A stretch of DNA of 36,644 nt, taken from NCBI GenBank assembly GCA_030529725.1, contig JAUMWI010000014.1, positions 1 through 36,644 of the forward strand, read 5' to 3'. This stretch comes from Eubacteriales bacterium (GTDB taxonomy: Bacteria > Bacillota > Clostridia > Oscillospirales > Oscillospiraceae). Positions 18,775 through 21,777 of this stretch are shown one piece after another. A model generated the notes under the pieces. The model had not been told where the DNA came from and did no database searches. It saw nothing but the letters and a program-made list of their open reading frames with translations. The position numbers and the translations under genes are program-made. The stretch's first letter is position 1. The number at the start of each line of letters is the position of its first letter.

Positions 18775-19611
18775 TCACTCCTTTCCGCGCGAGGCGACCT
18801 GAACATCGACCTTGCGTGTCAGCCACATCGACAGCATGATGATGATCGCCATAATGAGAGAAATCGCGCTGCCGAAGTTCCAGTCACCCGTGGTGAGGAA
18901 CTGTGTTTCGATGATATTGCCGACGAGAACGAACTGACCGCCGCCGAGAAGCTTGGGAATGAAGAAGCTTGACACTGCCGGCAGAAATACCAGCGTAATG
19001 CCGGAAATGACACCGGGCAGCGACAGCGGCAGCGTCACGCGAAGAAATGCGGTGGCAGGTGCTGCACCGAGGTCACTTGCCGCTTCCAGAAGGCTCTTAT
19101 CCATCTTGGCGAGCGAGGTGTGGATCTGCAGGATCATAAACGGAAGGAAGTTATACACCATACCGAGAATGACGGCAAAGCTCGTGTGGATCATCGGAAT
19201 GGGGCCAATGCCGAAAAAGCCGAGAATGGTATTGAAAATGCCCTCGTCCTGTAAAATGCCCATCCATGCGTAGGTGCGCACCAGCATATTGACCCAGGTG
19301 GGCATCGTGATGAGCAGAATACAAAGTGTATTGCCGCGGCTTGGGAGCTGCGCGATGACATAGGCGATGGGGTAGCCTAAAAGAATGCAGATCAGCGTGG
19401 TAATGACCGCAATGTAGAGGGAGCGGAGCAGAACCTCCATAAAGACGCTGTCGGTTACAAAGCGAACGAAGTTGTCGAAAGTAAATTGAATGGTCAGGAC
19501 ATCGTTGCCGGAAACCGAAAAGGCGTAGAGCACGATCAACAGCATCGGTGCGACGATAATGATGCTGATCCACGCGACATACGGATAAGTCATGCTACGA
19601 AATTGCTTCAC
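18775..19611 (-). CDS. potB: Spermidine/putrescine ABC transporter permease PotB
   Basis: First membrane-channel subunit of the polyamine importer, 278 aa with about six membrane helices and an EAA loop ([20 protein letters not shown]). It pairs with the PotC half of the downstream fusion. Two adjacent GTG codons could start it; I prefer 19611, which overlaps the potA stop as GTGA and sits 7 nt after GGAGG, over 19614 with 4-nt spacing. The stop is followed within 5 nt by the potCD start, so potA, potB and potCD are translationally coupled. Confidence 0.93.
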
Positions 19612-21197
19612 CACTGCCCCTCCTTTTTCATGACGTGGATATCCTGCGGCGCAAACACAAGACCGACCTGCTCGCCCTCCTCGAAGTGACGGGTGGTGGA
19701 TACCTGATATTCATAGCCCTCGGTGGAGAAGGTCACATCATACACGCCCGGGGTGATTGTCTCGGGATCAAAGTCATATTTGACATCGGTGATCTCGACC
19801 TGCTCGCCGTCCTCAAGGGACCACGCCGATGCGCTTGCCCAGGTTTCAAGATCGGTGTCAAGCGCCATACTCTCCTGAATATCTTCGACCTTCTTAAAGA
19901 AGTTCATGGCATAGATTTCTTCCTGATAGACCTTGCTCTCCACGCGGTTTTGCGCCACAACCAGAACTTTGACCGTGATGGAGGTGTCGTTTGCCGTGGA
20001 GAAGGTAACGGAGTAATTTCCGGTTTCCGGCTTGATATCATAGTCAACGGTCTTGATGGAAATGGGTTCCTCGGTCTCGGCATCCCATGCCTCGGCAGAG
20101 GCAAGGGCAACGATCCTGGCTTCGTCCAGCTCGGCAACGTCTTCTACGTCCAGCAAAAAGCCGTTGGCGCTGATCTTTTCTCCCTTTTCCTCGTTAAACA
20201 CAGGCTTGTCCTGGGAAACCTGCATTTTTACCGTGATCGAGGTGCCGACACGGGTCTCCACGACCGTTTCGTAGTGCATCCCCTTAAAGATCTGGGACTT
20301 GACCGTGCCTTTAAGCTTGCCATCAGAGCGGGAAACAAGGTCAAGATGCTCGGGACGGATGACGATATCGACTTTTTCACCCTTAGCAAAGCCGCGGGCG
20401 TCGCATTCAAACTTTTTGTCCTCAAACACAACATTCTCATCATCAACGACCACGCCGTCGATAATGTTCGTCTCGCCGATGAAATTGGCGACAAACTCGT
20501 TAACGGGCTTGCGGTAGATCTCGGTGGGGGTGCCGACCTGCTGAATTTCGCCCGCATTCATGACGACGATCTTATCCGACATGGTGAGCGCTTCTTCCTG
20601 ATCGTGCGTGACAAAGATGAAGGTAATGCCGACCTCCTCCTGAATGTACTTGAGTTCCTTTTGCATTTCCTTGCGGAGCTTCAGATCGAGCGCGCCGAGC
20701 GGCTCATCAAGCAGCAGGACACTCGGCTCGTTGACCAGAGCGCGTGCAATCGCAATGCGCTGCTGCTGACCGCCGGAGAGTTCGGTGACGTTGCGGTCGG
20801 CATAATCCTCGAGATTGACAAGCCTCAGCATACGCATGACCTTCTGCTCGATGACATCCTTCGGCTCTTTCTTAATGGTGAGACCGAAGGCAATGTTATC
20901 GTAGACATTCATGTGCGGGAACAGTGCGTATTTCTGGAAAACGGTATTGATCTCGCGCTTGTAGGGGGGGATGTTCACGATGTCCTCTCCGTCAAAGAGA
21001 ACTTTTCCCTCCGTCGGCTGCAAAAAACCGCCGAGAATGCGCAGAAGTGTTGTTTTACCGCAGCCGGAGGGACCGAGCAGCGTAACAAACTCGTTTTCAT
21101 AAATATCAAGCGAAACGCCCTTGAGAACGACCTGACCGTCCTCAAAACTCTTGACAATATTTTTAAACTGAATCAGCTTTTTCTTTTCTTCAGCCAT
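19608..21197 (-). CDS. potA: Spermidine/putrescine ABC transporter ATPase PotA with repeat-expanded C-terminus
   Basis: ATPase that powers polyamine uptake. The first 240 residues are a standard ABC domain: Walker A GPSGCGKT (42-49), Q-loop, signature LSGGQQQR (140-147), Walker B LLLDEP (161-166) and His198. A TOBE region follows (about 275-315, [16 protein letters not shown]). The protein is 529 aa against about 350-380 for normal PotA. The extra length is two tandem units at about 317-402 and 403-493 with Ig-like character, after which the TOBE end resumes ([18 protein letters not shown]). ATG 21197 has AGGA 8 nt upstream; a TTG at 21203 is too close. The ATPase motifs are intact, so it should be active. 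Confidence 0.93.
19719..20249 (-). repeat. Tandem Ig-like/TOBE-like repeat units inside PotA
   Basis: Two units of 86 and 91 residues (PotA 317-402 and 403-493) share ordered landmarks: TSITVK (319-324; 405-410), VEDV/VEDI (351; 437), an ALASAEAW / TWASASAW pair, VDYDIKPET / VKYDFDPET, and NYSVTFSTA / VYDVTFSTE. The last strand pair also resembles HYETVVETR of the TOBE domain just before unit 1. The units look like bacterial Ig-like (Big-type) domains usually found outside the cell, or like duplicated TOBE hairpins. Confidence 0.75.
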
Positions 21198-21221: not shown

Positions 21222-21755
21222 TTAAAACAGGGGAGGGGTGCTGACCCACAGAATATGTGCGGTCATTTTCTTTTCATTTTTCAGGGAATGAAAGGTGCGT
21301 CCGTGGAGATAGAACGTCTCGCCCTTGCGCAAAATGCTGCGTTTGCCGTCGCATTCAAGGATGACGCTGCCATCGATTACATAACCGAATTCCTCGCCGC
21401 TGTGCGGTGCGACCTCGAACGACTCGCCGCCGGAGGGCAGCTCCAGCAGGATCGGCTCCATCTGGTTTTTCTGCGTGTTCGGCACGATCCAGTGAACGGT
21501 GCAGTTTTCGCGCTCGTCAACAAAAAAGTCATTTTCACGGAAGAAATACTGCTCGTCCTTGTTCTCTTTAAAAAACTCTGCAAGATTGGTGCCGAGTGCC
21601 TCCAGAATGTCATCAAGCGAGTCGATGGAGGGGGAGGTCAGGTTGCGCTCTAATTGGGACAGGAAGCCTTTGGTCAGCTCGCTTCGGCTGGCGAGCTCCT
21701 CCAGCGTCAGTCCCTTCTGCGTTCGCAGCGCCTTGATTTTACTGCCGATATCCAT
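21222..21755 (-). CDS. XRE-family transcriptional regulator with C-terminal cupin domain
   Basis: A 177-aa DNA-binding regulator. Residues about 4-60 are a helix-turn-helix of the XRE/Cro type (IGSKIKALRTQKGLTLEELA, TKGFLSQLERN); residues about 100-175 are a small cupin barrel (APHSGEEFGYVIDG, GETFYLHG) that probably binds a small ligand. This architecture is that of PuuR, the putrescine-responsive repressor, and it is often found beside pot genes. It is the first gene of the pot operon, 24 bp before potA, so it probably controls its own promoter in response to polyamine. GGAGGG lies 7 nt before the ATG; the upstream TTG at 21773 is not used. Confidence 0.9.
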   Translation of the reverse strand: MDIGSKIKALRTQKGLTLEELASRSELTKGFLSQLERNLTSPSIDSLDDILEALGTNLAEFFKENKDEQYFFRENDFFVDERENCTVHWIVPNTQKNQMEPILLELPSGGESFEVAPHSGEEFGYVIDGSVILECDGKRSILRKGETFYLHGRTFHSLKNEKKMTAHILWVSTPPLF

Positions 21756-21777
21756 AAAATGCCCTCCTGTCAAATAT

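Follow-up and report, generated by a model that had tools for sequence, protein, structure and literature searches.

Two tandem repeat domains apparently spliced into the TOBE hairpin of a polyamine importer ATPase, PotA

Introduction

How gut bacteria take up polyamines interests a wide field, and to our knowledge it is poorly understood how PotA, the ATPase of the polyamine ABC importers, is shut off. The closest described system is PotABC of Escherichia coli (8y5f, 8zx1), whose PotA has 360 ordered residues. PotA is described as a cytosolic protein that carries an ATPase and a regulatory domain (PMC11414716). Here we analyze a PotA encoded in a 36,644-nucleotide stretch of DNA (the window) from a bacterium of the Oscillospiraceae (GenBank assembly GCA_030529725.1, contig JAUMWI010000014.1, positions 1 to 36,644). 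The window PotA shares with E. coli PotA the nucleotide-binding domain, the fold of the regulatory domain and the place as a polyamine importer subunit, and differs from it by a two-unit insert of 177 aa in the TOBE regulatory domain, of a kind that E. coli PotA does not have. Repeats inside PotA or the TOBE domain of MalK-type proteins were undescribed among the open PMC literature matches listed (titles and abstract openings), and none of the family models in the libraries searched describes the insert-bearing form.

Results

The open reading frame of the window PotA encodes 529 aa from an ATG at position 21197 (531 aa from a TTG two codons upstream; all coordinates are positions in the window). 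It contains two similar units, residues 317-402 and 403-493, which the original prediction, made from the sequence alone, had picked out and which are real; residues 317-493 coincide exactly with positions 19719-20249. When compared as a single pair, unit 1 and unit 2 matched at 46% over 68 aa by BLASTP (E 5e-12), and their profiles aligned with an hhalign probability of 98.1 (E 1.4e-13); therefore the repeat is not due to chance. The motifs TSITVK, VED and A-x-A-W and, as a strand, VTFST were likewise all found as described. The borders of the units, as first drawn, start in the middle of a domain, and by the predicted strands the two domains would span about residues 338-417 and 424-502. An AlphaFold2 model displays repeated modules, each with six strands and two short helices: strands 340-343, 347-350, 369-372, 381-386, 393-401 and 406-414 and helices 351-356 and 359-365 in repeat domain 1, and strands 426-429, 433-436, 457-460, 469-474, 484-492 and 495-501 and helices 437-441 and 446-453 in repeat domain 2, the final strand of which is the native strand 2 of the TOBE domain. 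An Ig-like fold is a likely prediction for the units. With the insert and the units as queries, Pfam gave no Ig family above cut-off, and neither did NCBIfam with the insert; the best PDB match named Ig-like had an E value of 0.49-0.7, which is not significant. A Foldseek search with the whole PotA model gave ABC ATPases in the 50 matches listed; upon re-alignment with VIA-align no Ig-type chain was present among the matches listed, a result that is uninformative about the insert. The Listeria-Bacteroides repeat (PF09479) is not one of the three families that Pfam listed with the insert as query, nor was it among the Pfam matches listed for the whole window PotA (25 of 31 shown).

In ordinary PotAs of the same bacterial family the corresponding segment is a short hairpin that consists of FKG-x-x-Y, a strand, a turn, a second strand and a tail ending like DIHVMKK. 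None of the 18 ordinary PotAs of this family that were aligned (350-397 aa after trimming) has the insert. They share with the window PotA the hairpin flanks (FKG..Y) and the tail IHVMKK or similar, but where the window PotA has about 177 residues, their turn has a few. Superposition of the model on E. coli PotA (8y5f_A) with VIA-align matched 343 residues between 6 and 525 with an rmsd of 2.1 and left 177 residues of this span unaligned, which are not itemised individually. The native strands 309-316 and 495-502 are separated by 178 residues, and the mean identity to ordinary strand 1 was 0.42 for strand 309-315, that to ordinary strand 2 being 0.30 for strand 495-502. In comparison, strand 319-326 had an identity of 0.47 to the repeat strand 405-412 and of only 0.03 to ordinary strand 2, and strand 486-492 had an identity of 0.68 to the repeat strand 395-401 and of 0.22 to ordinary strand 1. 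These values suggest that both native strands lie beside repeat strands and that the insert represents two periods of the repeat, with the cut at the turn that joins its last two strands (F and G if the units are Ig-like). The TOBE_2 family matched the window PotA with 46.3 bits in two stretches, the best of them at 279-330. In summary, two tandem homologous, beta-rich, surface-type domains have very probably been spliced into the turn of the native TOBE hairpin, which supports the earlier proposal that a cytoplasmic polyamine ATPase gained an internal module, here within its regulatory domain.

We scanned 300 genomes of the same family, 394 of the order, 398 drawn from the phylum and 196 of the class. 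In the family the query matched across the insert in 12 genomes from five genera, and in 35 more genomes the tail alone matched, from about residue 485, which bears out that the usual TOBE end follows the units; a match in genome G173 was weak and of a different kind. The unit profile matched in 18 genomes of the order, and in 16 of these a frame of PotA length held two units. Six genomes of the phylum matched, with the insert in PotA in three (G000, G894 and G973), in a surface-type open frame in one and weakly in two, and two genomes of the class, including G1189; the assignment of G973 and G1189 refers to frame length and the presence of two matches only. Among named genomes, of which the best 80 of 216 relatives found were analyzed, all 78 complete relatives had 526-535 aa when measured from 41 residues before Walker A, with a near-constant insert, and the remaining two end with their contigs. 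Forms with one or three units are perhaps under-sampled, since one of the search patterns lay inside the insert and the ranking favored full coverage. The carriers include isolates of Holdemanella biformis, Anaerotignum lactatifermentans, Faecalicatena contorta, Eggerthia catenaformis and Sharpea porci; some labels of metagenome-assembled genomes (Proteobacteria, Myxococcales) look wrong. The insert-bearing PotA is a real and widespread variant of a known enzyme, and since cultured gut species carry this conserved addition to the regulatory domain, how PotA is shut off becomes open to experiment.

In a quick tree of 100 rows built from residues 8-300 with the insert excluded (L207, L215 and L216 having been left out beforehand), a branch with an SH-aLRT of 99 set the 40 insert-bearing rows, namely the window and every second of the other 78, apart from the rest, consistent with a single origin of the insert in the sampled PotA set; long branches were flagged by the tree tool in some outgroup rows. 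For 103 pairs at 85-97% identity, 56-70 of which were usable per region with a high median dS of 1.0-1.3, the median dN/dS was 0.031 in the ATPase domain and 0.066 and 0.048 in the native regulatory domain; the two halves of the insert gave 0.096 and 0.057. By these sequence comparisons the insert is under purifying selection with a constant copy number. In addition, an ordinary PotA was used as query in a check on 197 genomes with ten candidates scored per genome; in all seven insert-bearing genomes among them the insert-bearing PotA was the sole match with E <= 1e-100, and therefore polyamine import by the PotA route probably uses the insert-bearing form in those genomes.

Since PotA is cytosolic (PMC11414716), the insert should be cytosolic as well. 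No hydrophobic span was found in residues 300-525 of the window PotA, where the highest 19-residue mean was 1.07 (highest in 79 sequences, 1.63). The insert carries a net charge of -25 in the window and of -16 to -29 across the 79 sequences.

A homologue of the unit was found outside PotA in a single case, a 491-aa open frame of genome G710 (locus L173) that matched the unit-1 profile in hmmsearch (E 1.6e-8). This frame holds one unit homologous to window unit 1 and is of a wall-anchored type that differs from PotA in having no ATPase: at its C-terminus we recognised by eye the usual wall-sorting signal, in which an LPKTG motif is followed by a hydrophobic segment and a tail of basic character. 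Upstream of this frame, beyond an in-frame stop, lies a stretch that resembles leucine-rich repeats. A second copy in a surface protein was not detected in 10 genomes of the order of G710, nor did the unit-profile searches of the order and class of the window reveal further surface-protein copies. Two weak matches in the order, L077 and L078, which resemble a PepSY-type protein and the ribosomal protein bL9, respectively, were set aside, as were the weak phylum matches L174 and L175. Searches of the window's own genome with the insert and the unit profile returned PotA only, no relative was found in plasmid, phage and viral collections, and PHROGs gave no significant match.

A similar arrangement was found in another lineage. 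The PotAs of two genomes, G372 and G422 (L218 and L219, with frames of 544 and 538 aa), have the same turn of the hairpin interrupted by an insert of 170 aa, in which Pfam identifies two Listeria-Bacteroides (InlB-type, Flg_new, PF09479) repeats (E 1.7e-19 and 9.8e-19). The net charges of these inserts are -16 and -14. Like the window PotA they thus hold two acidic surface-type repeats in this turn, but the repeats belong to an unrelated family and the two proteins form their own branch of the tree (SH-aLRT 99) apart from the clade with the window-type insert. Nine of the 52 genomes of their family matched this insert; it resided in PotA in two, both of one genus, g158 (2/2 genomes seen), and the other matches lay in frames of 695-2672 aa that are not PotA. 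Moreover, in long-tailed PotAs of the window's order (L220-L225), chosen for their long frames and scattered over several positions of the tree, the regulatory domain is followed by another complete one in six of six tested (hmmsearch E 1.9e-19 to 2.1e-9; hhalign 99.4), the tailed L210 lying outside this test. Because of the separate InlB-type insertion and the appended domains, these comparisons indicate that the PotA regulatory domain is elaborated more than once in this group, and the presence of two unrelated surface-type repeats at one turn of a cytoplasmic enzyme is an unusual and clean case of convergent domain grafting.

The features of the window and of the comparison loci are compiled in Table 1. 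The window PotA passes TIGR01187 (392.5 bits, cut-off 355.6; whole protein, NCBIfam) and stays below the cut-offs of the stricter equivalog models NF043075 (533.6 of 550) and PRK09452 (426.5 of 482); its best solved relatives are the E. coli PotA structures (E about 1e-96). Walker A, signature and Walker B motifs are all present, leaving the ATPase motifs intact, and their columns, LLLDE among them, are invariant or nearly so across 79 sequences. Its genes follow the order HTH-cupin regulator, PotA, PotB and PotC-PotD fusion, which places potA in an operon with PotB, PotC and PotD. PotB scored 233 bits with its best model, below the cut-off of 348. Transport of spermidine or putrescine by this system is predicted from the similarity to PotD.

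Table 1. Coordinates of the features in the window and in comparison loci
Feature	Position	Strand	Evidence
PotA, polyamine ABC importer ATPase, 529 aa	19611..21197, stop codon to 19608	minus	TIGR01187, solved relatives
Nucleotide-binding domain, residues 8-240	20478..21176	minus	PF00005, 135.4 bits
TOBE regulatory domain before insert (residues 241-316; native hairpin strand 1, 309-316, at its end)	20250..20477	minus	TOBE_2
Two-unit insert, residues 317-493, in TOBE hairpin turn	19719..20249	minus	absent from ordinary PotA; structural superposition
Repeat domain 1 (predicted), residues 338-417	19947..20186	minus	AlphaFold2 model, ten-residue mean pLDDT 79-88 over 331-420
Repeat domain 2 (predicted), residues 424-502	19692..19928	minus	AlphaFold2 model, ten-residue mean pLDDT 73-87 over 421-510
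Regulatory domain after insert, residues 494-529	19611..19718	minus	within tail about 485-526 shared with ordinary PotA
PotB permease, overlapping potA end	18775..19614	minus	best NCBIfam PRK09497 PotB
PotC-PotD fusion (permease and binding protein), 652 aa	16868..18826	minus	PF00528 at 96-268, SBP_bac_8 at 343-605
HTH-cupin regulator, PuuR-like, upstream of potA	21222..21773	minus	HTH_3 and Cupin_2
LPKTG-ended surface-type open frame with one PotA-unit homologue	L173, 1312-2631	minus	hmmsearch E 1.6e-8
PotA with two InlB-type repeats (L218)	G372:C7:5500-9000
PotA with two InlB-type repeats (L219)	G422:C30:79000-82500

Discussion

The original prediction offered two sources for the units, a duplication of the TOBE hairpin and an Ig-like domain of secreted proteins. 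Our comparisons favor an imported surface-type domain over a TOBE duplication because a homologue of the unit occurs in an LPXTG-type surface frame (one case). The second proposal held in part: it gains from this homologue and from the InlB-type repeats at the same turn in another lineage, while its Ig-like element lacks a Pfam Ig family at cut-off. That the units are duplicated TOBE hairpins appears very improbable. The strand pairs YETVVET/TSITVK, YSVTFST/TSITVK and YDVTFST/YEYQVST do look alike, and such a duplication would suit the identities of native strand 1 to two repeat strands (0.30 and 0.32) and the extension by phmmer of E. coli PotA through window residues 318-345. The resemblance to TOBE is confined, however, to single strands and does not extend to whole units: strand 319-326 is close to a repeat strand and far from ordinary strand 2, each modeled unit has two helices in addition to its six strands, the Pfam list obtained with the 177-aa insert (E <= 1) shows neither TOBE_2 (PF08402) nor another TOBE model, and the genuine duplicates of the regulatory domain in L220-L225 look different.

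The best explanation at present, which we regard as about even in probability, would be that the two repeat domains form an acidic arm of the regulatory domain by which PotA is tuned, and a regulatory rather than passive role of the insert is predicted with the same even confidence. Each protomer of the PotA dimer would carry one such arm, which may alter how the two regulatory domains or the ATPase halves come together. The likeliest input would be cytoplasmic polyamine, with the acidic arm attracting the polycation in trans-inhibition, a prediction that we consider tentative; a docking partner would come next, and a tolerated passenger third. Several observations weigh against a sharply joined, polyamine-tuned arm. 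The pTM of the AlphaFold2 model was 0.60, which leaves the placement of the arm loose. The sharp join is blurred by the strand identities of 0.30 and 0.32 and by the ordinary-hairpin pattern, which demanded a tryptophan in strand 2 and picked up the hairpin in only 29 of 58 ordinary or tailed rows; from the phmmer extension the true position of the left join could be about 25 residues later. The surface-protein copy is acidic too (-6 in 80 aa), so that the acidity was maybe inherited and not selected, and unit 1 changes at a somewhat higher rate than the native regulatory domain does, as would suit a tolerated passenger.

EIIA-Glc binds the regulatory domain of MalK, and the repeat domains might similarly bind another protein, be it a scaffold or a regulator of the PTS or signalling type, and gate the pump in this way. 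Such a docking arm, to which we give roughly one chance in four, would agree with the conservation of the insert and its place on the regulatory domain, with 90%-conserved positions in both units and with the partner binding common among surface-protein repeats. Yet no partner gene accompanies the insert in flanks of up to 5 kb a side at 80 loci, where clustering of frames of at least 90 aa returned no extra conserved neighbor: after the HTH-cupin gene and the pot genes with the shadow frames of these, the next true neighbor family occurs in 7 loci. A partner could be encoded elsewhere in the genome. Two unrelated repeat types at one turn suit a single specific partner poorly. It is somewhat less probable still that the hairpin tip is merely permissive, having accepted a one-time recombination with a repeat array whose partial removal would break the composite hairpins. 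The differing elaborations of the PotA regulatory domain and the lower constraint on unit 1 fit such a passenger, and the composite strands would hinder its clean loss; the dN/dS of the insert close to that of the native domain and the constancy of copy number and length in 78 of 78 relatives argue against it. A wider form of the regulatory arm, which we hold to be doubtful, would make the tip of the regulatory hairpin a natural splice site, where gut Bacillota repeatedly grafted pairs of adhesin-type repeats and so formed acidic arms that sense or buffer polyamines, a new substrate-feedback device for MalK-type importers.

A link of the insert with the PotC-PotD fusion was rejected, as the two genes are fused in 25, separate in 49 and incomplete in 6 of the 80 loci. 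The HTH-cupin gene lies upstream of potA in 61 of the 80 insert-bearing loci by BLAST and in 62 by clusters. The best NCBIfam model of its product in the window is PuuR (79.2 bits, cut-off 211), and this regulator is perhaps a polyamine-responsive repressor.
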